Shown here one piece after another: positions 2,623 through 52,514 of a stretch of DNA of 52,514 nucleotides. The position numbers were made by a program, and so were the translations under genes. The notes beneath the pieces were generated by a model that worked only from the letters and a program-made list of their open reading frames with translations, did no database searches and was not told the DNA's origin. The DNA is taken from assembly GCA_020148145.1 (NCBI GenBank), contig JAHCRE010000016.1, forward strand, positions 228,827-281,340, given 5' to 3'. Within the stretch, counting starts at the first letter, position 1. Each line of letters begins with the position of its first letter. Source of the DNA: Patescibacteria group bacterium (GTDB lineage: Bacteria; Patescibacteriota; Minisyncoccia; Minisyncoccales; JAHCRE01).

Positions 2623-3175
2623 TTATCAGCCCAGCGAAACAGGGTCATCCAAATTAGGTTCGGAAAAAGATGACAAGAAATTGAGGGAATAAGCGAGCCG
2701 CTTTCTATCACTAACCAGCTTAGAAAAACTCCAACTCCTAACTTGAAACAAAAGTCACGAAGAGAGAGTGTTTCACGAAAATGTGTGTATCCAAAGAGTA
2801 CTCCATCGACAATTGTTGCAAGAATCAAAATTAGCCAAGGGAATCTCAGAAACACCATAATATATAGAGGCCCTCGGAATAGTAGTTCTTCCATTAATGT
2901 TGCTGTGATAGCTTTAAGGCCCATTCTTTACTTTTTAGCATTTCACCAAGGCGATCTCCTTTTTCGACAGCAGTCGAAGGTTTTGATTTCAATAAATTTC
3001 TATTAAGAATTACACTGATTATACCGAGAATATCCATCCCGAACATCACTGCTACGCCTATTCCTGTTAGTCTTGCCATTTTGATTAAAGAGCACCCTCT
3101 AAAAAGAACGTCGAAGATCCCTAAAGATATATAGAGACTCACTGAACCAATCAACCATTTTTTTAATCTTTCCAA
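2610..3175 (-). pseudogene. CPBP-family intramembrane protease, split by a frameshift
   Basis: The C-terminal frame (2610-2924) shows the CPBP/CAAX-protease signature: EELLFRG, FGYTHF and HLFPN with hydrophobic segments. The family normally has several membrane helices before the EE motif. Those are found in an overlapping frame (2894-3175), which begins at a TTG preceded by AGGAGA and ends about 30 nt into the second frame. Together they give about 195 residues of a single protein, so I infer one gene with a frameshift near 2895-2910. Because the downstream frame has its own ATG, two overlapping genes cannot be excluded, but a 104-residue CPBP core alone would be unusually short. The substrate is unknown; the family acts in membranes, often in protein maturation or immunity. 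Confidence 0.6.
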
Positions 3176-22057: not shown

Positions 22058-22738
22058 TTATTTTATTGACCTATTTACAGCTATAACAAACTCACCTTTG
22101 ATTTTACCTTTCTCAATTTCTTTTATTACCTCATTAATTTTTCCTCTATAAATTGTCTCAAATTTTTTTGTTAATTCTCTAGCTACAACTATTCTTAATT
22201 CATGATTCATGCCTTTCAATTCATTTAAAGTTTTCAAAATCCGATAAGGTGATTCATAAAAAACTACTGGGTATTTTGATTCTATCACTTCTTTAAAAAA
22301 CTTTTTTCTTTTCCTCTTTTTTGGAGGAAAACCAAAAAATAAAAACTTACCCATCGGAAATCCAGAAGCTGAGGCTGCAGAAATAACTGCTGAAGGGCCA
22401 GGTATAGGAACTATTTTTACTTGATCATTCAACTCATCCACCACTTTTTCTATCAATTTATTTCCTGGGTCAGAAATTCCCGGAGTTCCGCTATCTGTAA
22501 CCAAGGCTAAAATTTTGCCCTTTTTTAAAAGTTCTAAAATATAATTTACTTTTTTTAAACGGCTATGCTCATGATAACTTAGAGTTTTAGTTTTTACATT
22601 GTAATAATCTAATAATTTCTTAGTCACTCTTGTATCTTCAGCCAAAATTAAATCGACCTCCTTTAAAATTCGGAGGGCACGAAATGAAAAATCCTCTAAA
22701 TTCCCAATTGGGGTCGCAACGACATATAAAATAGCCAT
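22058..22738 (-). CDS. rsmI: 16S rRNA (cytidine1402-2'-O)-methyltransferase
   Basis: 226 residues of the tetrapyrrole-methylase fold. Landmarks: VVATPIGNLEDFSFRAL, LAEDTRVTKKLL, LVTDSGTPGISDPG, PIPGPSAVISAASASG and FGFPPKKRKRKK. It methylates the 2'-OH of C1402 in the ribosomal P-site of 16S rRNA with SAM. It lacks the C-terminal extension found in some enterobacterial homologues, as is common for small genomes. It is co-transcribed with metG downstream; AI-2E permease gene 10 nt upstream. Confidence 0.95.
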   Translation of the reverse strand: MAILYVVATPIGNLEDFSFRALRILKEVDLILAEDTRVTKKLLDYYNVKTKTLSYHEHSRLKKVNYILELLKKGKILALVTDSGTPGISDPGNKLIEKVVDELNDQVKIVPIPGPSAVISAASASGFPMGKFLFFGFPPKKRKRKKFFKEVIESKYPVVFYESPYRILKTLNELKGMNHELRIVVARELTKKFETIYRGKINEVIKEIEKGKIKGEFVIAVNRSIK

Positions 22739-30218: not shown

Positions 30219-33200
30219 TTATTTTAATTTTTTAATTGCCAACCATAATTTTTCTCGATTGATTTTGGGATTTTCTTCAATATCAAAAGTTAATTTAGAC
30301 TTTTTGCCAAATTGAAGTCCTTTTGCCTTAGTTTTTTTCAAAATAAAATCTTTATTTTCAACCAAAATTTTATTTAAATTAGGATATCCTAAAAAATAAA
30401 CTAAGATCCTGTCTTTTGGTTTTAAGCCAGCCTTTTTTCTCATTTCCTGTAAGTTTCGAATAACTTCTCTGACCATCCCCTTTTCTCTAAGTTTTGGTGA
30501 AATTTTAATATTTAAAGCAATTTTTATTTTACCTTCGCTTTCTAAAATCCAATTTTTCTCTTTTTTAATATTCCTTACAATTTTAATTTCTCTAATATTC
30601 AATTCTTCCTTTATCAAGTTTAGTAATTTTTTATCAATTTTTAATTTTGGTTTTTGAATCTTCAACTTTGTTAAAGGCTGTCTTACTTTTATTTTAGCCC
30701 TCATCCGGGATCTGAGCCCTAGACTAACAATTTTTCGGACCTGATCCATTTTTTTATTTAAAGTTTTATCAATCAATCTTTTATCTCCTTTTGGCCAGTC
30801 GGAAAGATGAACGCTTTGGAGTTTTGCCTGCCCCATAGGAAGCCGGAGGCTTTCCTTCGAGGACTTTTGATCCCGTACCAGAAACTTTGTTTCGGTACGG
30901 GGCATGCTTTTAATCTTTTGATAAATTTCTTCACTTAAAAAAGGAATAAAGGGAGCGGTTAATTTAGTTAAGGTTAAGAGTAAATAACCCAGGGTGGCTG
31001 AAGCTTCTTTTAGTTCCTCTTTTTTTTCTGGATGATGAAATCTTTTTCGCGACCTTCTGATATACCACTGAGAAAAATCTTCAATAACAAACTTTTCTAT
31101 ATTTCTGGCAGCTGAGGTTACGTCAAAATCTTCTAAATTCTTGGTAACTACTTGAATTAATTCATTTAATCTTAAAATAGCCCATCTATCTAAAACATTT
31201 CTACTTCTCCTGGACCACAATTCCCACGATCGTGAGAATCGCAGCCCACCATAAGTGTTGAAAAAAACAGAGCAGTTCCAAAAAGTCATAATAAATCTTT
31301 TTAGAGAATCTTGGATTTCTCTTTCAGAAAAACATTTTGCTTCCCCTGGTTGATTAACAGTGAAAAAGTACCAACGGAGAGTATCTGAACCGTACTTTTT
31401 AAAAATTTGCCAAGGATCAACCATATTCCCTTTTGATTTTGACATTTTCTCCCCTTTTTCATCTAAAACAAGGCCCAAAGATATAACATTTTTATAAGAA
31501 GGGCCAAGCCCAAGTAAAGTTGAAATTGCCAACAAAGTATAAAACCACCCTCTGGTTTGATCGATGGCTTCGGCAATATAATCTGCTGGGAACTGTTTTT
31601 TTTGATCGATTAATTTTTTATTTTCAAAAGGATAATGATATTGAGCAAGAGGCATTGACCCGGCATCAAACCAACAATCAATAACTTCTAGAACTCTTTT
31701 CATTAAACCCCGGCATTTGGGGCAGAAAAATTTAACCTCATCAATATAAGGTCGGTGGAAATCTAATTCTCCTTTCTCATTTAAAGGCACTGAACTGAAT
31801 TTTATTTTTCTCAATTCCCCTGTTTCTATTATTTTTCCCTGAAGTTTTTGCCTTATCAAATTTTCATTAGATAACCCTTTTAATATTCCTTCCAAAAGCC
31901 ACAAAGGATCTCCGTGGCTAATAATTAAAATAGTTTTCCCTTTGTGTCTTCTATCAATCTTTTTTATAAGACTAATCATCCTTTTTCTACAATCTGACCA
32001 ACTCTCTCCATTTTTCGGTCTTTTGTAAAACCTCTCTTTTATATCTATAAAAATTTTATAAAATTCTTCTATTTTACATCCTTGATAAATTCCGAAGTTC
32101 ATATCCCTAAGCTTTGAGCTAAAATTTATTTTAAGGCCGAGTTCTTTAGCCACAATTTTAGCGGTTTGACGAGCTCTTAAAGAATCTGAAGAATAAATTA
32201 GATCGATTTCTCCTTTCCTTAATTTTTTAGCTAAAGATTCTATCTCTTTTTTTCCTTTTTTAGTCAGAGGATAAGAAGAAAATCCTGGCCAATCATATAT
32301 TATCCCTTTCTTTTTTGTTTGATGAAACGTTTCGCCGTGTCTTAAAATAAAATATTTATTTTCACTAAATTTTTGAGAAATCAAATCTTTTTTTGAACTA
32401 ATGACTTCTAAATTTCCACATCTTTTGCATTGCCAAATGGGCAAAGGAGTACCCCAATACCTTTCCCGAGAGAGTGCCCAATCTTTAACTTCTTTTAACC
32501 ATTCGCCAAATCTCCCTTTTTTTATATGAGCTGGAATCCAATTTATTTTCTGATTGTTTTTAATCAAATCTTTTTTAATCTTCTGCATATTTATAAACCA
32601 GCTCTCTTTGGCGTAATACAGAAGGGGAGATTTACATCGCCAGCAAAAAGGATAATCATGCTCATATTGTTCTTCCTTAAAAACGAGATTTCTTTTTTTA
32701 AGATCTTCAGAAATTTCAGGATCAGCGTCCTTAACAAACATTCCTGCCCATTTTTTTACCTCCGGTTTAAACTTTCCTTCTTCATCAACGGTTAATAAAA
32801 TTGGTAAGTTATTTTCTTTTCCTACAATCATATCCTCTACTCCAAAAGCCGGAGCAATATGGACCAAACCGGTCCCTTCTTCTAATGAAACGAAACCACC
32901 GGCAATAACAAAGTAGGCCTTTTTCTCTGGTTTTATAAATCTAAAGAGAGGTTTGTATTGCAAATTAAGTAGTTCTTTGCCTTTAATTTTCCTAAGAATT
33001 TTGTAATCTCGGCCCAAAACCTTTAATCTTCCTTTAGCTAAAATTAAATCTTCTCTACCTACCCTTGCTTTAATATAAGTGAAATTTGGGTTCACAGCTA
33101 TTGCCACATTACCTGGTAATGTCCAGGGAGTAGTTGTCCAAATCAGTAAATAAGTATTTTTTTGATTTTTAACGGGGAGTTTTACATACAGGGCTGGTTC

Positions 33201-44477: not shown

Positions 44478-45076
44478 TTACCACTTTACCAAAAATTCAT
44501 GATATTCGTTGTCTCGGTGAACACATTTTATCTCTTCACAGATTACTGGCTTTCCTATTGCCACCTAGAAAGTGCTAGAAAGAAATCCTATGATAGTGTG
44601 ACATATAATTGGATAAGTCTTAAAATTTTCAATCCTTAAAGTCACAGATTTTTTTCTTGATTGCGCTCTACTATTTTAAGATCTCCGATAGAAAAATACT
44701 TCCGCCACATCTTTGGAGCTTCTTTAAGTAATTTCTCCAGAGAAACAAAATATTTCAGAAAGATTCTAATAATTATAGAAGACTTAGATTCAAATTCTCC
44801 CATTTCCTGAAACTTTTTATCATCAAAGTTAAAAAGTCTTTTACTAATTAATAGAGTAAGAGTAGTAAGGTGCAAAGGATAATAATCCGTTGATTTTATT
44901 TTTCTATAATTGATTGGGTAACCAAGCTTTGTCATTGCATCTCTTACTTTTTTCATTCCCTCTTCCCCCTTTTCTTTGACAAGATATTCTCTTGCAGCCT
45001 TAATTATTCTCCCACTTATCTCTCCTTTTATCTTCATCAATTCATTAATTTCTTCTTTTGAAACTATTTGTTCCAT
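44478..45076 (-). pseudogene. Decayed paralogue of the V4R-like gene at 46233
   Basis: The frame 44642-45076 (144 residues) matches the first 145 residues of the 46233-46844 protein: same start EEI-MKIKGE, LGYPINYRKIKSTDYYPLHL against LGYPIKYKEMKAMGFHPIGL, FNFDDKKFQEMGEFESK against FNFDDEKIKELGTFGSK. It then stops. Homology continues in a second frame (VTLRIENFKTYPIICHTIIGFL, matching AILRLENFNLHPIFCCFLGGYF) and in a third (KPVICEEIKCVHRDNEYHEFLVKW, matching QITFEETKCTFRGDEYHEYLLKW), ending at a TAA at 44478. At least two frameshifts have therefore broken it. Possible function as a truncated 144-residue protein cannot be excluded. Confidence 0.8.
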
Positions 45077-45139
45077 AATTTTTCCTAATAAAAATACTAT
45101 ATTACTATTTTAGCAAAAATATTCTAAAAATTAAACCCA

Positions 45140-45194
45140 CGAGACTACAACCCACCCACCACCCTCCCGCCTTCGGCGGGCCCCTAAACTCTCG
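45140..45194 (-). repeat. GC-rich dispersed element, GACTACAACCC family, copy 5
   Basis: Outer CGAGA/TCTCG stem (45140-45144 with 45190-45194), with the GACTACAACCCACCCACC sequence and CCCGCC-TTC-GGCGGG hairpin (45166-45180) in the loop. It has the same layout as 42214-42276 but lies upstream of the pseudogene. Confidence 0.75.
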
Positions 45195-45206
45195 GGCGGG
45201 CGGAAA

Positions 45207-45233
45207 TAAAAAAAGGGCATTTGAATATGCCCT
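45207..45233 (-). terminator. Terminator of 45272-45607
   Basis: AGGGCAT/ATGCCCT stem (45214-45233). On minus it is followed by TTTTTTTATTT. Confidence 0.85.
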
Positions 45234-45271
45234 AAAAAGATTTCTGGAGTTATTGAATATACGGAGTATCT

Positions 45272-45607
45272 CTAACCCAGTACTAAATCCTTTAGACCAG
45301 CCTTCACCAGCTCGGGACGTTCACCTTGGCTTACGAAAAGTATCTTTCCATTTCTTTCGAAACAGACTACATCTGCACCAGATAGCTCTGAAGAAACCGT
45401 GTCTACTGCCATTCTTCTCACTATTACCGTGTCATAAATGACACGAGGTTGCGGTTCAATGCCAGCAGAATTGAAAAATCGTTTTAAGATGCTTCTCAAA
45501 AATACATTTGACTCTACTTCGCCAACTTTGCTTTCACAGACAAATACGACTGTCTTTTTGAGTTCAGGAACCGTCCATACTGCCATCTCGCCAAATTTTT
45601 CTTTCAT
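45272..45607 (-). CDS. Small soluble protein, unknown function
   Basis: 111 residues, predicted alpha/beta (VVFVCESKVGEVESNVFLRSILKRFF; VIYDTVIVRRMAVDTVSSELSGADVVCFERNGKILFVS). A good ribosome site, GAGGAG, precedes the ATG by about 12 nt. Two cysteines sit in otherwise hydrophobic strands. I do not recognise a family. Its own terminator (45207-45233) shows an independent transcription unit. Codon usage is slightly richer in GC than the housekeeping genes, as in several accessory genes here, which may hint at transfer. Confidence 0.65.
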   Translation of the reverse strand: MKEKFGEMAVWTVPELKKTVVFVCESKVGEVESNVFLRSILKRFFNSAGIEPQPRVIYDTVIVRRMAVDTVSSELSGADVVCFERNGKILFVSQGERPELVKAGLKDLVLG

Positions 45608-45664
45608 TTTCCATCACTCCTCAAAGAACTATTACTATTCTATCAAACTCTCTAAAAAAGTCAA

Positions 45665-45706
45665 CCCCGAGAAAAACCCTCGCCGCGCTATGCGCGGCAA
45701 GGGTGA
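45665..45706 (-). terminator. Terminator with palindromic extension, after the MTH1-like gene
   Basis: On minus ACCCTTG-CCGCGC-ATA-GCGCGG-CGAGGGT, followed by TTTTCTCGGGG and a U-rich tract. The CCGCGC/GCGCGG palindrome sits inside the CCCTCG...CGAGGG stem. Confidence 0.7.
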
Positions 45707-45716
45707 AAATAACTTT

Positions 45717-46211
45717 TTAAATATTTTTCACGAATTTAATATTGTGTTTTTCTACAACTTCTTCTCTGTCAAAAATAAAGTCTGCTTTTAATTTCTTACC
45801 CTTCAAAATATGGAGGAGCCAGAATTTATCATCTGACCACATCTCGTTAAATGGAATTTCTGATTCTTTAAACCATTTTGGGGTCATTTCTTTAGTCTCG
45901 ACAGGTTTTCCTTCCCAATTTTTAACTAAGAACACATGGACTTCTTGATCCCACCTTTGCTCTTTGGCAATATTGGGGAAATAAAAATTTAAAATAGCTA
46001 CTTTTTCTAATTCCTTTATTTTGACCCCAATTTCTTCTTTAGTTTCTCGAATAGCAGCATCAAAGATATTTTCATCTCCTTTTTTGGGGTTTAATTTTCC
46101 TCCAACCCCATTCCATTTCCCAGCCCCAAAACCCTTCTTTTTCATAGCTAAAAGTATTTCCTTGCTCCCTTGATTTTCTTTAACTAATAAACACAAAGTC
46201 GCCTTTTTCAC
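45717..46211 (-). CDS. 8-oxo-dGTP diphosphatase, MTH1-like Nudix
   Basis: 164 residues. It resembles animal MTH1 (NUDT1) more than E. coli MutT: the segment KKKGFGAGKWNGVGGKLNPKKG aligns with human [20 protein letters not shown], and the rear EEMTPKWF...IPFNEMWSDDKFWL aligns with DEMRPCWF...IPFKDMWPDDSYWF. The Nudix box GDENIFDAAIRETKEEIGVKI is complete. It should hydrolyse oxidised purine nucleotides (8-oxo-dGTP, perhaps 2-OH-dATP). It is followed 21 nt upstream by the V4R-like gene. A good ribosome site is not obvious. Confidence 0.9.
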   Translation of the reverse strand: MKKATLCLLVKENQGSKEILLAMKKKGFGAGKWNGVGGKLNPKKGDENIFDAAIRETKEEIGVKIKELEKVAILNFYFPNIAKEQRWDQEVHVFLVKNWEGKPVETKEMTPKWFKESEIPFNEMWSDDKFWLLHILKGKKLKADFIFDREEVVEKHNIKFVKNI

Positions 46212-46232
46212 ATTTTTAAATTGGAGCTTCCT

Positions 46233-46844
46233 TTACTCCCATTTTAATAAATATTCGTGATATTCATCTCCTCGGAAAGTACATTTAGTTTCTTCAAAAG
46301 TTATTTGAGAAGACCTTACTAACATTTGCACAACTCCACAAAAATAACCTCCCAAAAAACAACAGAAAATAGGATGGAGATTGAAATTTTCCAATCTTAA
46401 AATGGCATATTTTTTCTCTTCGCTAAGTTCAACTGGAACCAGTTCGCCTATAGCGTAGTGCTTTTTCCAGATTTTTGGGGCTTCTTCAAAAAAAACTCTT
46501 TGAGCAGAAAGAAAATATCTTATAAAAAGTTTAAGAATAAAGGAAACCTTAGATCCGAAAGTCCCTAATTCCTTAATCTTTTCGTCATCAAAATTGAAAA
46601 CTTTCTTAATAGCTAATAGAGAGATGGCTCTTAGACCTATTGGATGAAAGCCCATAGCCTTCATTTCTTTGTATTTTATAGGATAACCTAATCTTTCTAG
46701 TTCATCTTCCAATTTTTTTAGCCCCTCCTCACCCTCCTCTTTTAAAATATATTCCCGGTCAATTTCAAAAACTACCCCCCTTGTTTCGCCCTTAATCTCC
46801 ATTAACTTTTTAGCAATTTCTTCTGTAAGAATCTCTTTTTCCAT
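46233..46844 (-). CDS. V4R-like sensor protein, intact paralogue
   Basis: 203 residues. The C-terminal part (LRLENFNLHPIFCCFLGGYFCGVVQML...ETKCTFRGDEYHEYLLKW) has the pattern of V4R (4-vinyl-reductase) or related ligand-binding domains: hydrophobic GG loop, then a conserved Cys with a GD turn and aromatic end. The N-terminal half is helical. An alternative is another heme-NO-binding-like fold. Small hydrophobic ligands are the usual targets, which is inference. A broken paralogue lies 1.2 kb downstream (44478-45076), so the family has duplicated and one copy is decaying. Confidence 0.7.
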   Translation of the reverse strand: MEKEILTEEIAKKLMEIKGETRGVVFEIDREYILKEEGEEGLKKLEDELERLGYPIKYKEMKAMGFHPIGLRAISLLAIKKVFNFDDEKIKELGTFGSKVSFILKLFIRYFLSAQRVFFEEAPKIWKKHYAIGELVPVELSEEKKYAILRLENFNLHPIFCCFLGGYFCGVVQMLVRSSQITFEETKCTFRGDEYHEYLLKWE

Positions 46845-46887
46845 ATTTTTTGTTTCACCTCCGACTAAGAGTTAATTAAAAATAGAG

Positions 46888-47100
46888 CTAACGCAATAGG
46901 GATATAACTTGGATAATAAAACCAAAAGCAATAAGAATTAAAGCAAAATATCTTTTTATCCGGTAGCTTCTAATAATCTTTGCTCTTGAAGTTCCTTTCT
47001 TGTCATGAATTTTTTCATTCATCATTGCCGGATCTGAAAATAATAGTAGAGTTACCACCCCTGAAAAATCAATAATTAAACCGTATAGTTGTAGTTCCAT
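46888..47100 (-). CDS. Small two-helix membrane protein
   Basis: 70 residues. Two hydrophobic helices (LYGLIIDFSGVVTLLLFS and RYFALILIAFGFIIQVISLL) flank a basic cytoplasmic loop (NEKIHDKKGTSRAKIIRSYRIKR). No family recognised. It may be a holin-like or regulatory mini-protein, a guess only. It lies about 30 nt downstream of a repeated hairpin and extended -10 module (47131-47160), which probably drives its transcription. Confidence 0.6.
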   Translation of the reverse strand: MELQLYGLIIDFSGVVTLLLFSDPAMMNEKIHDKKGTSRAKIIRSYRIKRYFALILIAFGFIIQVISLLR

Positions 47101-47130
47101 ATTTTATTTCCATTAGTTTCGCTTTTTATT

Positions 47131-47160
47131 ATTCTACCAAAAAATCGCCCGAAGGGCGAT
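47131..47160 (-). promoter_or_regulatory. Hairpin plus extended -10 module, upstream of 46888-47100
   Basis: On minus: ATCGCCC/GGGCGAT stem (47144-47160), U-rich TTTTTT, then TGGTAGAAT (extended -10, 47131-47139). One of a repeated set; see the findings. Confidence 0.65.
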
Positions 47161-47179
47161 TGGCGGCGGGGCGGGCGGA

Positions 47180-47208
47180 AATAAAAAAGCCAGGCGTTAA
47201 AAACCCGG
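47180..47208 (-). terminator. Terminator of 47242-47511
   Basis: On minus GCCGGG-TTTTTAACG-CCTGGC (one G-U pair) followed by TTTTTTATTT. Confidence 0.75.
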
Positions 47209-47241
47209 CATAGGTTGTAGGTTATTTTGTTTTTACAACCT

Positions 47242-47511
47242 CTATTCTCGAGAGACAAATTTTATGATAAAGTTCTTGGCCCCAGCTATTAAACCTAAAC
47301 CTGGGAATCCAGCCGAAGCTAGAAAGTGTCCTACGACATCTTTAGTCTTAATAGCAACTGTGAATCTTCTTGGATTAAGCCCACTTCTTACTACAAATTT
47401 ACTAAGTTTTTCGTCGAGTCGCTCTTTAAAGTCCTCGGGGGTTGGGTACTGTTCTGAGGAGTACCAAACCAAGAAAATCTCTCTCTGTACTACTTGTACC
47501 TTTTGTTTCAT
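47242..47511 (-). CDS. Small protein, unknown function, with an upstream overlapping frame
   Basis: 89 residues, mixed alpha/beta (REIFLVWYSSEQYPTPEDFKERLDEKLSKFVV; FTVAIKTKDVVGHFLASAGFPGLGLIAGA). The ATG at 47511 has no Shine-Dalgarno sequence. The strong AGGAGG of the transcript sits 50 nt upstream and instead serves a GTG frame (47426-47554, 42 codons) that overlaps this start in another frame. Translation may be coupled through that frame, or the GTG frame may be the real product. No family recognised. Confidence 0.5.
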   Translation of the reverse strand: MKQKVQVVQREIFLVWYSSEQYPTPEDFKERLDEKLSKFVVRSGLNPRRFTVAIKTKDVVGHFLASAGFPGLGLIAGAKNFIIKFVSRE

Positions 47512-47554
47512 AAATAACCTCTATCAGGGCTGGGACGCAATACTGAGGGTCCAC
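47426..47554 (-). CDS. Possible 42-codon leader or alternative ORF with strong Shine-Dalgarno site
   Basis: GTG start 8 nt after a perfect AGGAGG (47563-47568), from a promoter of its own (47582-47610). It overlaps 47242-47511 by about 86 nt out of frame and ends TAA at 47426. The peptide begins VDPQYCVPALIEVIYETKG. Either a coupling leader for the 89-residue protein or a chance frame; I favour coupling weakly. Confidence 0.3.
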   Translation of the reverse strand: MDPQYCVPALIEVIYETKGTSSTERDFLGLVLLRTVPNPRGL

Positions 47555-47581
47555 TCTCTTTACCTCCTTTGTACTAGTAGC

Positions 47582-47610
47582 AGTATAGGGTTTAATTTAA
47601 GACTTGTCAA
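47582..47610 (-). promoter_or_regulatory. Promoter of the 47242 unit
   Basis: TTGACA (47605-47610), 17-nt spacer, TATACT (47582-47587). Near-consensus, followed by AGGAGG in the leader. Confidence 0.7.
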
Positions 47611-47629
47611 GCGTTGGTCAATCAAAACC

Positions 47630-47668
47630 CCCGAGAAAAACCCTCGCCGCGCTATGCGCGGCGAGGGC
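47630..47668 (-). terminator. Terminator with CCGCGC palindrome, after the DUF2061 gene
   Basis: On minus CCCTCG-CCGCGC-ATA-GCGCGG-CGAGGG followed by TTTTTCTCGGGGGTTTT. It is very similar to 45665-45706, and the reverse-orientation relative is at 48047-48078. Confidence 0.7.
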
Positions 47669-47682
47669 GAAAAATAAAAATT

Positions 47683-47730
47683 GCCCAGCCCCGCACCGTA
47701 CGGTGCGGGGCCCCAGCGACGGGCTTTTTT
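47683..47730 (+). repeat. Terminator-like GCCC-AGCGAC-GGGC unit carrying a palindromic insert
   Basis: The unit GCCCAGC...AGCGACGGGC TTTTTT contains a 25-bp insert (47690-47714) with CCCGCACCG/CGGTGCGGG arms. The same unit without the insert is at 48092-48105. AGC is repeated at both sides, as a short target-site duplication would give. Confidence 0.75.
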
Positions 47731-47786
47731 AAATTCCCTTTAACTCCGCCCTAAATATCTTTCTTTAGTTGGAAAATGTCAGTATT

Positions 47787-47996
47787 TTAAACTCGGAGTC
47801 GTCCCCAACTAGTCCTATTCCATAACCGCTCGTGAATATAGTAAAGAATTAGTTTTAAAATTACTTCAAAGAAACCAACTCCAAAAGAAAGCAGAATCTC
47901 TCCTGTAAAAATAAATACTATTATCATCGTTGTCAACGTTGCGAGAAATCTCCAGCTTATTGATTTTATAATACTTCTTCGATGATTAGCTTTCAT
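47787..47996 (-). CDS. DUF2061 membrane protein
   Basis: 69 residues. It shows the full DUF2061 pattern: RRSIIKSISWRFLATLTTMIIVFIFTGE, then GVGFFEVILKLILYYIHERLWNR. Two membrane helices with a conserved cytoplasmic start and the E-x-K-x-x-YY-HER end. The family is sometimes found next to sulfate-assimilation genes, but no such genes are here, so the function is open. It is a single-gene unit followed by the terminators at 47630-47730. Confidence 0.9.
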   Translation of the reverse strand: MKANHRRSIIKSISWRFLATLTTMIIVFIFTGEILLSFGVGFFEVILKLILYYIHERLWNRTSWGRLRV

Positions 47997-48046
47997 ATTT
48001 TTTGTCTTTAACCTTTAACGGATTATACCAAATTAAAGCTTCGATA

Positions 48047-48110
48047 AGAACCCCGCCGCGCATAGCACGGCGAGGGTAAAAAATAAAAATTGCCCAGCGA
48101 CGGGCTTTTG
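48047..48110 (-). terminator. Compound terminator downstream of the PlsY-like gene
   Basis: On minus: GCCCGTCGCTGGGC stem (48092-48105), then AATTTTTATTTTTTA, then CCCTCGCCG-TGCTATG-CGCGGCGGGG. This is the uninterrupted version of the 47640-47730 arrangement. Confidence 0.65.
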
Positions 48111-48125
48111 GTTTAAATTTCCCTT

Positions 48126-48146
48126 GCCCTGAGCTTGTCGAAGGGC
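48126..48146. repeat. GTCGAAGGG-type palindromic element
   Basis: GCCCT/AGGGC arms around GAGCTTGTCGA. It interrupts an AAATTTCCCT|CAACTTCG unit that is continuous at 51401-51418. Confidence 0.7.
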
Positions 48147-48159
48147 TCAACTTCGGCTC

Positions 48160-48187
48160 GCCGTCCGGAGCTTTAGCGAAGGACGGC
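48160..48187. repeat. GCCGTCC-type palindromic element, copy 1
   Basis: Perfect 7-bp arms GCCGTCC/GGACGGC around GGAGCTTTAGCGAA. It is identical to 51423-51450, and both are inserted in AACTTCG|CTAAATTTT units. Confidence 0.75.
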
Positions 48188-48201
48188 CTAAATTTTGTCG
48201 A

Positions 48202-48870
48202 TTAACCGTCAGAGGTCCGTCCTCTGTTTTTTAATAAATGGCCTCGTCTTTTTAGGGTGTCTCTATCTAGAAAGAATCGATATAAAATTATTTTTTTATC
48301 TTTTATCTTCCATAGGCTTCCTGGCTTTCCCAAAACCCGTTGCAAGAGGACTAAGAATAGAGCTGGAATAGAAAATATATAAACCGATTCAATTTCAAAA
48401 TAAAATCCTAATATTATTGCCGAGATTGGAAAAAGAAGCATTCCTATTGATGATCCTTTGTCCCGGGAGATAATTTTGCAAAGGAGCCACAAAGCAGCTG
48501 AAATGAGAAGAATTTTCCAAGATAATATTGAAAGCACTCCAATCAACACTGATCCTCCTCTTCCTCCCCAAAAATTCAAAAAAAGTGGCCACATCTGACC
48601 ACAAAGAGCAAAGACACCAGCTAAAGCCTGAAAAGCTATTGAAAGGCCCAGTGTCTGGGCTCCAAAAACAGCCAGCACTCCTTTAAAAACATCAAGCACT
48701 CCCGAAAGTAATCCCGGCAGCATTCCCACATTCTGGATAATATTTGAACCGCTAAGCTTTTGATAACCCAATTTTCGAATATCCTTTCCACTCATCCACT
48801 TTGTAATCAAATAACCATTGGGAATGGAGGCAAAAAGATAAGAAAATAAAATCCAAAGAAATTCAATCAT
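48202..48870 (-). CDS. plsY: PlsY-like glycerol-3-phosphate acyltransferase, divergent
   Basis: 222 residues with about six membrane helices. The three PlsY motifs are partly visible: SIPNGYLITKW (motif 1), SGSNIIQNVGM in place of GSGN-GATN (motif 2), and GQMWPLFLNFWGGRGGS in place of GHxxPVFLxFKGGKG (motif 3). It should move acyl from acyl-phosphate to glycerol-3-phosphate for phospholipids. The Arg for Lys and lost Thr/Asn make activity uncertain, so a lipid-related paralogue is possible. The end (residues 200-222) is a basic, Arg/Lys-rich tail that overlaps repeat DNA. Confidence 0.78.
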   Translation of the reverse strand: MIEFLWILFSYLFASIPNGYLITKWMSGKDIRKLGYQKLSGSNIIQNVGMLPGLLSGVLDVFKGVLAVFGAQTLGLSIAFQALAGVFALCGQMWPLFLNFWGGRGGSVLIGVLSILSWKILLISAALWLLCKIISRDKGSSIGMLLFPISAIILGFYFEIESVYIFSIPALFLVLLQRVLGKPGSLWKIKDKKIILYRFFLDRDTLKRRGHLLKNRGRTSDG

Positions 48871-48926
48871 ATAGTTATTTTAACATATTTTTACTTTTGC
48901 CATGCAATTTTTATCTTTTTTCAATT

Positions 48927-48955
48927 AAATTTCTCTCAACTTCGCCCTAAATTTT
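48927..48955 (+). repeat. Intergenic AAATTT-CAACTTCG-CTAAATTTT unit, empty copy
   Basis: Continuous AAATTTCTCTCAACTTCG-CC-CTAAATTTT, the form without insertion. Filled relatives lie at 48117-48193 and 51401-51458; shorter forms at 47737-47755 and 50820-50838. Confidence 0.65.
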
Positions 48956-48986
48956 GGTGATTTTTTTGACGATGTTAGGACCCGTT

Positions 48987-49496
48987 TTATCCCATAATTT
49001 GGTTTATTATTTGCTCTGGTGATTGGTTTGCGCCAATAAAAGGCATTTTCAACTCTGCTGCCTGCCGACGTATAGTTTCCATGTATTTAATCACTAAATC
49101 TGTTTGTTCTTTTGTTTTTCCCATTGGGTTTAATCTGCTTTGGTTTTTGAGACGCTTTTTTATCTCTGCGGGGCTAATATCTAAATAATAAACCTCGTCG
49201 AATAAATCTAGCATACTAAAACAATTTCCTGAAAACCCAAAGATTATAGCTGGTTCATTTTCTTTAATGAATTTTTGCAACACCTCTCGATCCCAAAGAA
49301 ACTCATGTTCGTCCAACCATTTCTTATCAGCGTTCTTTGGAAATTCAACAGGCTTTTTATCCCAGCCGAACCAATCAGAAAGATCTTGAATTTCATCAGA
49401 ATCATAGATAAATGGATATTTATTTTTTAGTTTTTTTACAATGTATGTTTTTCCTGAGCCAGAAATACCAATCACAAGTATGTTTTTATTCTTCAT
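48987..49496 (-). CDS. P-loop NTPase/kinase of the AAA_33 or adenylate-kinase type
   Basis: 169 residues. The Walker A motif opens the protein (VIGISGSGKTYIVKKL). A middle block FPKNADKKWLDEHEFLWDREVLQKF and the SPAEIKKRLKNQSRLNPMGK lid-like segment recall small nucleoside or metabolite kinases with an Arg-rich lid. The substrate is unknown. It could phosphorylate a nucleotide, shikimate-like compound or tRNA end. A hairpin and TGGTAAAAT module (49503-49530) stands directly upstream, and the ATG follows it by 6 nt. Confidence 0.75.
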   Translation of the reverse strand: MKNKNILVIGISGSGKTYIVKKLKNKYPFIYDSDEIQDLSDWFGWDKKPVEFPKNADKKWLDEHEFLWDREVLQKFIKENEPAIIFGFSGNCFSMLDLFDEVYYLDISPAEIKKRLKNQSRLNPMGKTKEQTDLVIKYMETIRRQAAELKMPFIGANQSPEQIINQIMG

Positions 49497-49502
49497 ATTT
49501 TT

Positions 49503-49530
49503 ATTTTACCAAAAAACCGCCCTCTTGGCG
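49503..49530 (-). promoter_or_regulatory. Hairpin plus extended -10 module, upstream of 48987-49496
   Basis: On minus CGCC/GGCG stem, TTTTTT, then TGGTAAAAT (49503-49511), 6 nt before the ATG. Confidence 0.6.
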
Positions 49531-49552
49531 ATGCGGCGGGGCGGGCGGAAAT

Positions 49553-49575
49553 AAAAAAGAGAGTATTAGTCTCTC
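49553..49575 (-). terminator. Terminator overlapping the stop of 49566-49757
   Basis: On minus GAGAG-ACTAATA-CTCTC followed by TTTTTTATTT. The stop codon TAA lies in the loop. Confidence 0.8.
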
Positions 49576-49757
49576 CTATATTCTTTAAAACACTTTTTAC
49601 ATAAATGAATTTCACATTTAAATCCCTTATAATCAAACCAGATGTGCCAAGCTTTACGCATATATCTTTGGCAGTTAGCACAGTGAAAACCTCTATATTC
49701 TGGCTTTTGGTTTATATTCCAAGATTGAACAGTTTTTAATAATTTTTCTTTATTCAT
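49566..49757 (-). CDS. Small zinc-ribbon protein
   Basis: 63 residues. Two CxxC pairs, FHCANCQRYM and IHLCKKCFKEY, about 30 residues apart, form a typical zinc-ribbon or treble-clef unit; a Trp/Tyr-rich centre (KAWHIWFDYKGFKCEI) lies between them. It is likely a nucleic-acid- or protein-binding zinc finger. I do not know the family. It has its own module promoter (49764-49802) and a terminator that overlaps the stop codon. Confidence 0.7.
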   Translation of the reverse strand: MNKEKLLKTVQSWNINQKPEYRGFHCANCQRYMRKAWHIWFDYKGFKCEIHLCKKCFKEYRRD

Positions 49758-49763
49758 TCTTTC

Positions 49764-49802
49764 ATTCTACCAAGAAATCGCCTTTCAGGCGATTTCTTGG
49801 TA
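49764..49802 (-). promoter_or_regulatory. Hairpin plus extended -10 module, upstream of 49566-49757
   Basis: The longest version: 15-bp arms TACCAAGAAATCGCC/GGCGATTTCTTGGTA (49768-49802). TGGTAGAAT follows on minus (49764-49772), 6-7 nt before the ATG. Confidence 0.7.
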
Positions 49803-49845
49803 ACCTCCAAAGAAAAATTCTCGGCGGGGTAGAGAAAAATAAAAA

Positions 49846-49872
49846 AACGGATGCGTGACCCGTTATTTTTTT
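49846..49872. terminator. Terminator of the membrane protein at 49882
   Basis: AACGG/CCGTT stem with T-tract on both strands (TTTTTTT on minus). Confidence 0.75.
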
Positions 49873-49881
49873 GTAGCTACG

Positions 49882-50199
49882 TTATGAGAGGGGATAGATA
49901 TTTGTTCCAAAAATTACACCGGTTATAAAAGTGAAAAGACCGAACAAGGCAACAGCCACTAGGATTGTGATTATTGAGCCCTTGGTGCACAAATCTTCCC
50001 ATAACTTTGCAACAGTGAAAGAGCCTAGTAGTGCTATTGTGACGCTTGGGATTACTGTAAAGATTAGTATTGCCCCTATTTTTTCGTTAGGGCATGAAAA
50101 GACAAAGTATTCAATTGTTACCATACACGCTATCAACGAAAGCCATACTTTCAGCCATTTTACAAAGATCTGTCTTTCGCTCCATGTAAATATCCTCAT
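49882..50199 (-). CDS. Small polytopic membrane protein
   Basis: About 105 residues from MRIFTWSERQIFVKWLKVWL, start at 50199, chosen because GGAGG lies 11 nt before it and the upstream frame (to 50250) falls within the promoter. Three to four hydrophobic helices follow (LSLIACMVTIEYFVF; GAILIFTVIPSVTIALLGSF; IITILVAVALFGLFTFITGVIF). No family recognised and no charged motif that would suggest a transporter. It forms a unit with promoter 50222-50250. Confidence 0.65.
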   Translation of the reverse strand: MRIFTWSERQIFVKWLKVWLSLIACMVTIEYFVFSCPNEKIGAILIFTVIPSVTIALLGSFTVAKLWEDLCTKGSIITILVAVALFGLFTFITGVIFGTNIYPLS

Positions 50200-50221
50200 G
50201 CAGTGTTTTACCTCCAAAATC

Positions 50222-50250
50222 AAACTATCACAGATTCCAATAATTGTCAA
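50222..50250 (-). promoter_or_regulatory. Promoter of the membrane protein at 49882
   Basis: TTGACA (50245-50250), 17-nt spacer, TAGTTT (50222-50227). A GGAGG follows in the leader. Confidence 0.55.
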
Positions 50251-50262
50251 AATCCTAAGAAT

Positions 50263-50287
50263 AGAAATCGCCCAAAGGGCGATTTCT
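50263..50287 (-). terminator. Hairpin of the ATCGCC family, terminator of the SRPBCC gene
   Basis: Perfect 11-bp stem AGAAATCGCCC/GGGCGATTTCT with AAA loop. On this copy the -10 that follows in others is replaced by a TTGACA promoter. Confidence 0.55.
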
Positions 50288-50335
50288 CTTGGCTCTGAAC
50301 CGTGGGCAATTTTAGAAGTTGGCTTGGTTATAATA

Positions 50336-50779
50336 TCATTTCTCTAGCATCTCTTTTAACTTATCTATAACAGCACGCTTCCAGAAACGCATCGCATACC
50401 ATTCTATCAGAACCCTACCGAAAATGCGAAAAAATGGATTTTTTAATTCAACATCATAAGTATAGTTAATTTTTGTGCCCTCTGGTACTTCTTCCATCAG
50501 AAACTCTTCATGCCCGGCAGTGCCGATAGCACTTTTATTATCTGACACATAGCCAGCTGGCGGACGAAGCTGCGTTTCCATATGCACTGGAATAACCCGA
50601 CCGAATGTTTTAGCTTTAGCTTCTATTGTAAGATTATTGCCTTCTCTTTTAACTATACGGAGCGATTGGGCAACAGCCGGAAAATTCTTTGGCATGTTTT
50701 CAAAATCAGTCATTATTTTGTAAATTTCTTCACGCGGCGCTTTAATAATCCATGAACCTTTTAGGCGTATTTTCTTCAT
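50336..50779 (-). CDS. SRPBCC (START-like) domain protein
   Basis: 147 residues of the polyketide-cyclase/RatA/COQ10 fold. Starts with IRLKGSWIIKAPREEIYKIMTDFENMPKNFPAVAQSLRIVKREGNNLTIEAKA, the classical first strand and helix, and ends with a long C-terminal helix (RFWKRAVIDKLKEMLEK). Such proteins bind lipids, quinones or ring compounds in a hydrophobic pocket, or act as RatA-like regulators. The ligand is unknown. Short beta strands in the middle (VPEGTKINYTYDVEL) complete the sheet. A module promoter (50786-50815) stands 7 nt before the ATG. Confidence 0.85.
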   Translation of the reverse strand: MKKIRLKGSWIIKAPREEIYKIMTDFENMPKNFPAVAQSLRIVKREGNNLTIEAKAKTFGRVIPVHMETQLRPPAGYVSDNKSAIGTAGHEEFLMEEVPEGTKINYTYDVELKNPFFRIFGRVLIEWYAMRFWKRAVIDKLKEMLEK

Positions 50780-50785
50780 ACTTTA

Positions 50786-50815
50786 ATCCTATCAAGAAAT
50801 CGCCTTTCCGGCGAT
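50786..50815 (-). promoter_or_regulatory. Hairpin plus extended -10 module, upstream of 50336-50779
   Basis: On minus ATCGCC-GGAAA-GGCGAT, then TTTCT and TGATAGGAT in place of TGGTAGAAT, 6-7 nt before the ATG. Confidence 0.6.
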
Positions 50816-50850
50816 AGAAAATTTTCAAATTCGGTCTAAATTTTTGTCCC

Positions 50851-50882
50851 GTAGTGAGCGCGAAGCGCTCTACTTCGGGATT
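50851..50882. repeat. CCCG-TAGTGAGCGC palindromic element
   Basis: Long imperfect stem, CCCGTAGTGAGCGC with GCGCTCTACTTCGGG, loop GAA. It interrupts the TTTTTGTC region of the intergenic unit. Confidence 0.6.
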
Positions 50883-50893
50883 AGTGAAGGATA

Positions 50894-51142
50894 TTAGGGC
50901 CCGTTTTTTCTCGTTAATAAGAGAGTCTTAAGAGCGATTATCGCCCAAACTATATTTAAAGCCATTGCTGGCCAAGCTTTTTGAACAAAAGTATTCCAAA
51001 CAATACCAATGGCTCCAAACAAATTTAGAAGTTGATAAGACTGAGACTCGCCAGTGACTTTTTTTGTTGAAACAAGATAATAAGCAATAAGAATAAACGC
51101 CATTCCAATCCAACCAGCAATTGTCGGTGAAATATTTTCCAT
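50894..51142 (-). CDS. CBU_0592-like membrane protein
   Basis: 82 residues with three hydrophobic segments. The series GWIGMAFILIAYYLVSTKKVTGES, YQLLNLFGAIGIVWNTF and WPAMALNIVWAIIALKTLL matches the CBU_0592 domain family by pattern. The conserved YQLLNLxGAxG and ALNxxWxxIA motifs are intact. Its biochemical role is not known. A GAGG ribosome site lies 6 nt before the ATG, downstream of a TGGTAGAAT module. Confidence 0.85.
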   Translation of the reverse strand: MENISPTIAGWIGMAFILIAYYLVSTKKVTGESQSYQLLNLFGAIGIVWNTFVQKAWPAMALNIVWAIIALKTLLLTRKNGP

Positions 51143-51150
51143 ATTACCTC

Positions 51151-51180
51151 ATTCTACCAAAAAATCGCCTTTCCGGCGAT
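51151..51180 (-). promoter_or_regulatory. Hairpin plus extended -10 module, upstream of 50894-51142
   Basis: On minus ATCGCC-GGAAA-GGCGAT, TTTTTT, TGGTAGAAT (51151-51159), then GAGG and the ATG. Confidence 0.7.
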
Positions 51181-51187
51181 AAAAAAT

Positions 51188-51203
51188 TGTCCAGCGATGG
51201 ACA
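51188..51203 (-). terminator. Terminator of the mini membrane protein
   Basis: GTCC-ATCGCT-GGAC on minus followed by AATTTTTTA. It is the same unit as GCCCAGCGACGGGC (48092) with compensating base changes in the stem. Confidence 0.65.
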
Positions 51204-51205
51204 GT

Positions 51206-51370
51206 TTATTTTTTAGATATTTTCTTCTTTAACCATTTAAATAAATAATTGAATCCAACCGGAAGCAATCCAACAATTAAGACTATAGTCCATAACCACC
51301 AAAGCGGTTTTATGGTATAAGTCCAAATTCCTTTTATTAATTCTAAAGTAGAGACATCTATTATCTTCAT
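51206..51370 (-). CDS. 54-residue mini membrane protein
   Basis: A 54-codon frame starting MKIIDVSTLELIKGIW. One membrane helix (LWWLWTIVLIVGLLPVGFNYLF) and a basic tail (KWLKKKISKK) give an N-out, C-in topology by the positive-inside rule. It fills the space between the phosphatase gene and the CBU_0592-like gene, ends right before a terminator, and has no competing frame. No family recognised. A Shine-Dalgarno site is not visible, so confidence is moderate. Confidence 0.55.
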   Translation of the reverse strand: MKIIDVSTLELIKGIWTYTIKPLWWLWTIVLIVGLLPVGFNYLFKWLKKKISKK

Positions 51371-51422
51371 GTAAAATTTTCGTATAAATCAACTCAAATT
51401 AAATTTCCCTCAATTTCGGCTC

Positions 51423-51450
51423 GCCGTCCGGAGCTTTAGCGAAGGACGGC
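51423..51450. repeat. GCCGTCC-type palindromic element, copy 2
   Basis: Identical to 48160-48187. It lies in an AAATTTCCCTCAATTTCG|CTAAATTTTT unit and splits it cleanly. Confidence 0.75.
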
Positions 51451-51469
51451 CTAAATTTTTGTTTAAATT

Positions 51470-51994
51470 TCAAAAATTATATTCCCAATAGGGTTGCCAC
51501 TTAAAAGGTTCGCTTAAACATTCTTCAAGAGTTTTGCCACCGACAAGTGTATCCAAACCATATTGAGTAGCACGATGACCAACAACTAAAACTATTTTGG
51601 TTGGATATTTTTCTTTTAATTCTTTGTAAAAATCGTGAACTCTCGCCATTGCCTGTTCATAACTCTCACCATTCGGAAAAGGTTCTTTAATATGCTCTTT
51701 TTCCATTGGACTTACTATATTGCTTGGTTTACCATTGTAATCTCCGTAATTTACCTCTCTTAATCTTTTATCAACGATGGTGGGTATTTTATCTCCAAAT
51801 GCTATTTTAACTGTATCAACTGCTCTTTTTAAATCAGAGCAACAAATTAAATCTATTTTTATATCTTTGAATCTCTCTCCTAATTCTTTGGATTGTTCAA
51901 CTCCTAACCCAGAAAGCTCTACATCTTTCCAACCAGAAGATAATCCCTCTTCGTTATCCTTACTTGTTGCGTGAGCGGAAAAGTATATTTTCAT
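51470..51994 (-). CDS. Histidine phosphatase family protein, altered active site
   Basis: 174 residues of the phosphoglycerate-mutase-like fold. The usual RHGE reads SAHAT at residues 6-10, so the first His is kept but the following Gly and the preceding Arg that bind phosphate are changed. ICCSDLKRAVDTV, LREVNYGDYNG and VVGHRATQYGLDTL (second His) are normal. It may be a phosphatase of reduced or changed specificity. It is a separate gene from the phosphatase domain inside ileS. The ATG is 15 nt from the end of the next gene upstream. Confidence 0.85.
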   Translation of the reverse strand: MKIYFSAHATSKDNEEGLSSGWKDVELSGLGVEQSKELGERFKDIKIDLICCSDLKRAVDTVKIAFGDKIPTIVDKRLREVNYGDYNGKPSNIVSPMEKEHIKEPFPNGESYEQAMARVHDFYKELKEKYPTKIVLVVGHRATQYGLDTLVGGKTLEECLSEPFKWQPYWEYNF

Positions 51995-52008
51995 AGATTT
52001 TAAAAATT

Positions 52009-52440
52009 TTATCTAATTTTAGCCAAATCACCATTAAGAATTATCGGTTGCATTGCTTTAATTTCATCTTCATAAAGCATATCGGGAATTTCGTTTAGCA
52101 AAAAGATTTTCTTGCCAAAAACATAGGCAAATCCCATTTCAAGAAAGACATTACCACCGATATAACCCCTAATTCCATTTTTCTCGAAATTTAAAACTAA
52201 AATAGCATCGACTCCTTTAATTCTTTCAAAGTAATATTTAAGAGAGTTTTGTTTTATTGCTCTCTTTGAGATTTCACCGTTTTCTTTCTCTTTCATAATC
52301 TGCTCAAAGGCTACTTCACCATTCAGAATCATTTCAACAGTTTGGGGTAGAATTACCTCGTGACCCTGCTCGGTAAGATTATTTGCTATATCTCTTATTT
52401 GATTGGTGAAATCTAAACTGACACAGATTGCAATTTTCAT
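52009..52440 (-). CDS. Nucleoside 2-deoxyribosyltransferase-like protein
   Basis: 143 residues, alpha/beta Rossmann-like. MKIAICVSLDFTNQIRDIANNLTEQGHEVILP starts like a flavodoxin-type strand-loop. The block GVDAILVLNFEKNGIRGYIGGNVFLEMGFAYVFGKKIFLLNEIP has the GG-x-E-x-A pattern (GGNVFLEMGFA) of the deoxyribosyltransferase/YtoQ family, in which the Glu is catalytic. It may shuffle nucleobases or act on NAD-like molecules. A module promoter (52449-52478) is 8 nt before the ATG. Confidence 0.72.
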   Translation of the reverse strand: MKIAICVSLDFTNQIRDIANNLTEQGHEVILPQTVEMILNGEVAFEQIMKEKENGEISKRAIKQNSLKYYFERIKGVDAILVLNFEKNGIRGYIGGNVFLEMGFAYVFGKKIFLLNEIPDMLYEDEIKAMQPIILNGDLAKIR

Positions 52441-52448
52441 ACTTTCTT

Positions 52449-52478
52449 ATTCTACCAAGAAATCGCCTTTCCGGCGAT
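52449..52478 (-). promoter_or_regulatory. Hairpin plus extended -10 module, upstream of 52009-52440
   Basis: On minus ATCGCC-GGAAA-GGCGAT (52462-52478), TTTCT, TGGTAGAAT (52449-52457), then the ATG at 52440. Confidence 0.7.
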
Positions 52479-52514
52479 AGAAAATTTTTAACTTCGGTTT
52501 GCCGTAGGGTCGCC

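Follow-up and report, generated by a model that had tools for sequence, protein, structure and literature searches.

A dispersed terminator-like repeat of Patescibacteria occurs in a short form and a long form with a nested palindrome

Two copies of a terminator-like unit in the 52,514-nt stretch of Patescibacteria DNA analysed here (the window) most likely represent a single repeat in its long and its short version, and each of them may have been inherited in that form. Their assignment to one repeat, already proposed in a sequence-only reading of the window, is borne out by relatives, in which both the long and the short form recur. The window pair itself gives no direction of change. Taken together with the folding predictions described below, these units would document an order-wide terminator repeat of Patescibacteria with two length variants, whose hairpins are predicted to differ greatly in strength.

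Results and discussion

Anatomy of the window pair

The sequences of the two copies are as first described: positions 48092-48105 read GCCCAGCGACGGGC, and positions 47683-47724 read GCCCAGC followed by the 25-nt CCCGCACCGTACGGTGCGGGGCCCC and by AGCGACGGGC. The flanking AAAAATAAAAATT and the T-tract are also identical between the copies, as had been claimed, but the shared stretch extends beyond the limits originally given, a neighbouring palindrome preceding each copy (Table 1). The pair therefore represents two copies of a composite spacer.

The long copy does carry an extra palindrome, but not of the 25 bp proposed: the perfect palindrome has 24 bp, and it lies within a net length difference of 28 bp between the two units. 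Similarly, a direct repeat is indeed present at both ends of the insert, but the 3-bp AGC that had been read as a target-site duplication is only part of it. The full bounding repeat is CCCAGC (6 bp), which rules out a 3-bp AGC duplication and leaves seven equivalent breakpoints. When 28 bp are removed from the long unit, exactly the short unit remains; the breakpoint slack of 6 bp corresponds to CCCAGC.

At up to three mismatches, the window contains three matches to the unit against 0.33 expected, a number reached in 2 of 100 shuffles, and the unit matches thus exceed chance. The 21-nt palindrome has a single match in the window at the same threshold, with 0 expected.

Table 1. Coordinates of the units, their parts and neighbouring genes in the window, and of long units in two relatives
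Feature	Location	Strand	Description
Long ("filled") unit	47672..47730		A/T-rich arm, left GCCC arm, extra palindrome, right GGGC arm, T-tract
Left CCCAGC direct repeat	47684..47689	+	
Right CCCAGC direct repeat	47712..47717	+	
Perfect 24-bp palindrome GCCCCGCACCGTACGGTGCGGGGC	47688..47711		inside long unit
Short ("empty") unit	48081..48109		AAATAAAAATT-GCCCAGCGACGGGC-TTTT
Separate dispersed palindrome (ACCCTCGCCGCGC...)	47640..47667		28 bp, adjoins long unit
Second copy of the ACCCTCGCCGCGC... palindrome	48050..48077		28 bp, adjoins short unit
Third, diverged short unit	51184..51207		arms altered yet still paired (GTCC...GGAC)
DUF2061 gene	47787-47996	minus	long unit at its 3' end
89-aa ORF	47242-47511	minus	other neighbour of long unit
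PlsY-like gene	48202-48870	minus	short unit at its 3' end
Long forms of G002	G002:C15:5977-6033 and 31861-31917		covariance model
Long forms of G172	G172:C31:6131-6187 and 2664-2720		covariance model

The short unit and its predicted fold

Patescibacteria carry the short unit as a dispersed repeat, which by its sequence resembles a bidirectional terminator and has the consensus AAATAAAAATT-GCCCAGCGAYGGGC-TTTTT. In the window genome (809 kb in 26 contigs; the relatives are Patescibacteria as well), the 14-nt core has 10 matches at up to one mismatch, one of which corresponds to the right-hand portion of the long unit. A first pattern scan of the order missed short forms through its gap limit, and a separate short-form scan was therefore performed; the gapped-pattern matches of the first scan, apart from those in G000 and G002, were set aside as unrelated. 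The short unit is present in 28 of 247 genomes of the order, distributed over 18 families, with no match for the reversed-pattern control, and no short unit was found in viral contigs. Among the fetched loci, a set assembled for their similarity to the unit, 66 copies have perfect arms. Both tracts, A and T, are conserved in this set, and the most frequent loop is AGCGAT (30 copies), followed by AGCGAC (10).

The short unit folds as a small hairpin followed by a T-run on both strands. It has the G+C-rich hairpin with a 3' T-run and a 5' A-run that characterises bidirectional intrinsic terminators, and a terminator scan lists both window copies. We infer from this anatomy that the unit may act as a bidirectional intrinsic terminator. 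The predicted minimum free energies on the two strands are -30.2 and -31.7 kcal/mol for the long form vs -7.5 and -7.6 kcal/mol for the short form. As its hairpin is much stronger in folding, the long form would be expected to terminate more strongly, if the units terminate transcription at all.

Long forms in four families

A covariance model was built from three long copies and run with Infernal's stricter filters over 243 genomes. Each species was represented by a single genome, in most cases a draft. The model splits the two forms, with long forms at 69-87 bits (87 bits for the window long unit) and short forms at no more than 39 bits; two longer-looped relatives in G037 and G026 score about 32 bits, overlap the short-form range and were therefore recognised by eye. 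Altogether, seven clear long forms were found at unlinked loci in four families, namely the window copy, two in G002, two in G172 and one each in G037 and G026, or eight including a divergent insert in G022. In this last case (G022:C9:83068-83136), a nested palindrome of unrelated sequence (CGTAAAG...CTTTACG) interrupts the unit at a comparable position in the loop.

Long forms are rarer than short ones and are mostly flanked by short direct repeats, and their palindromes differ between families. Those of G172 are perfect, yet unlike the window palindrome at paired positions. Compensatory changes amount to two pairs among five sequences, which is not above shuffles (112 of 500), so that conservation of the hairpin is suggestive at most. 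A further copy, in G091, was ruled out as an independent long form, as its contig of 24.7 kb matches part of G002:C15 over its entire length at 99.97-100% identity; G091 belongs to another family, and the contig reflects either shared DNA through recent transfer or a binning error. A short repeated stretch lies at the junction of this contig (G091:C22) with respect to G002:C15. A model match in G217 was set aside as unrelated.

The extra palindrome was also searched for outside the unit. In the whole 809-kb window genome, its 14-nt core (up to two mismatches) occurs at one place, inside the long unit, and nowhere else. In a sample of 60 genomes from which G002 was left out, the sole near-match outside the unit lies close to a tRNA gene of G022 and is an ordinary hairpin. 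The same element at unrelated target sites was thus found neither in the window genome nor in this sample. A scan of genome contigs recovered only the G002 record (JAHCRH010000002.1). Viral carriers were ruled out, since neither the single exact palindrome match, in a viral contig rich in G+C, nor any of the six gapped-pattern matches has a related sequence context.

Direct repeats and orthologous sites

The breakpoint slack is 7-8 bp in the G172 copies and 5 bp in the G037 copy. Single substitutions masked the slack of the two G002 copies in the scoring of the breakpoint script; read directly, these copies have CCCAGC/CCCAGT and TCCAGC/CCCAGC at their two ends. Direct repeats of 5-8 bp, as in the window, G172 and G037 copies, are predicted alike by target duplication and by slippage deletion.

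The sequence-only reading had suggested searching relatives for both forms at orthologous positions, and one such long/short pair was found. Downstream of orthologous 77-aa genes (95% amino acid identity), G002 has a long form where its congener G001 has a short form, GCCCATCACCGAGC in gene orientation, within collinear flanks of 81-88% nucleotide identity. The site is therefore occupied in one genome and empty in the other, which gives no direction by itself. More distant orthologues of the 77-aa gene in G017, G012 and G013 have no unit at the locus, and the pair is thus not polarised. No unit adjoins the G002 orthologue (75% identity) of DUF2061, the gene at the window long site. The same holds in G171 for the orthologue (75%) of a small membrane-protein-like gene (L181:6223-6525) that lies beside a long form in G172. 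The G002 DUF2061 orthologue (G002:C20, ~22090-22296) is flanked on both sides by another dispersed hairpin (CCCGAGAGTTTTTCTCGGG), which parallels the flanking of the window DUF2061 gene by the unit composite.

Loss or gain of the nested hairpin

The window pair had been taken as direct evidence that copying of the unit came first and insertion of the palindrome second. This does not follow, since the 6-bp repeat equally suits a slippage deletion across the hairpin. Moreover, long forms stand at unlinked loci in four families, so that each window copy was perhaps inherited in its present state, and in the window genome the palindrome was found nowhere beyond the unit.

We lean, with some reserve, towards a repeat in two forms in which the long form gives rise to the short one by slippage. 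The unit in either form occupies many unlinked intergenic sites. The short form has a hairpin of 4-5 bp, GCCC(A)/(T)GGGC, flanked by an A-tract on one side and a T-tract on the other; in the long form, a second hairpin of ~10 bp, bounded by CCCAGC, is nested between these arms and strengthens the predicted hairpin on both strands. Such a hairpin between direct repeats is prone to deletion, and its precise removal through slippage of the polymerase is probably the most frequent step at present. Loss of hairpins flanked by direct repeats through slippage has been documented both in vitro and in vivo (PMC4134008); the two cases share a hairpin enclosed by two repeats and a precise removal of the hairpin with one of them, whereas in the Patescibacteria unit the process is deduced from comparison alone. 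If the model is true, one slip could change the strength of a terminator. Against it stands the great excess of short forms over long ones. Being far commoner, the short form is the more parsimonious starting state across the order. Nor does the filled form appear ancestral in all relatives, the one finding that the sequence-only reading had held to speak against insertion, as short forms are far more widespread.

Site-specific insertion is a possible, though more tentative, explanation. A palindromic element of ~22 bp, moved by some enzyme, would enter the loop of the short hairpin and duplicate GCCCAG or CCCAG (5-6 bp), and the window pair would be a true filled and empty site. The order-wide occurrence of the short form agrees with this, as does the shared insertion point in the long units of four families, most of which have short terminal direct repeats. 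More than one palindrome is found at this point: besides CCCYGYACCGTACGGTRCRGGG and CCCCCACACC...GGTGTGGGGG, G022 has yet another. In addition, insertion sequences (IS) provide a precedent, as they target palindromic REP repeats, in one case with a 6-bp duplication (PMC1525189). However, the piece is too short for a gene or for the usual ends of a known element, and the confinement of its core to the unit in the window genome, together with the ordinary nature of the near-match among the 60 genomes, argues against a mobile element. We know of no enzyme or longer parental element for the ~22-bp palindrome. Doubtful in our view is the specific proposal that a tiny Patescibacteria palindrome of ~22 bp inserts solely in one class of terminator-hairpin loops, with 5-6 bp duplicated, and thereby switches terminators between weak and strong forms.

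It is distinctly unlikely that the long form is the ancestral full element everywhere and every short form a deletion product. Deletion does reproduce the short consensus, and the long forms have diverged between families and hence are not recent; but short forms are known from 18 families vs four for long forms, and most families with short units have no long form in the same scans. It is highly improbable that two unrelated terminator hairpins came together by chance to form the long unit, or that this unit is an error of assembly: similar GC-rich hairpins do occur alone, as near the G022 tRNA gene, but the same long arrangement recurs with matching unit borders in separate genomes of four families.

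Returning to the slippage model and the insertion alternative, paired orthologous sites with a long and a short form make gain vs loss of the hairpin directly testable in series of strains.

Comparison with known repeats

The unit resembles bidirectional Rho-independent terminators, among them the repeated-motif terminators of Neisseria and Pasteurellaceae (PMC1852404), in its G+C-rich hairpin with A- and T-tracts and in a conserved sequence at many gene ends. Unlike them, it has a short and a nested long form. Uptake signals number at least 1,000 copies, compared to ~10 copies of the unit in 0.8 Mb; with 10 core matches in 809 kb, far below ~1,000 per genome, a DNA uptake signal is ruled out. 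REP/BIME repeats and the IS elements that insert into REP (PMC1525189) likewise involve palindromes scattered between genes, some of them broken at a constant position with short direct repeats, but here the interrupting piece is a palindrome of ~22 bp that lacks a transposase gene. REPINs and MITEs are likewise short, non-coding, palindromic and dispersed; the extra piece differs from them in being confined to the unit in the window genome. No earlier description of such a Patescibacteria repeat was found in the literature searched, which lay largely outside subscription papers.

Gene context

The units sit at gene ends or between convergent genes, the latter exemplified by a G172 long form. 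In the window, the PlsY-like and DUF2061 genes are consecutive on the minus strand and have the short and the long unit at their respective 3' ends. An Rfam scan of the window found a tmRNA and one tRNA, and nothing else.

Positions 44500-52514 of the window contain small minus-strand genes encoding NUDIX, DUF2061, PlsY-like, AAA kinase, polyketide-cyclase-like, histidine phosphatase and unknown proteins, and this array resembles a gene-cassette array. Several of its genes are preceded by a repeated module, GGCGATTTTTTGGTAGAAT, which consists of a hairpin, a T-run and then an extended -10-like TGGTAGAAT. Units alternate with modules in G002:C15 and G001:C12 too. A further palindromic repeat, CCGTCCGGAGCTTTAGCGAAGGACGG, has identical 26-bp copies at window positions 48161-48186 and 51424-51449, and the 51-bp stretches around them are 98% alike.
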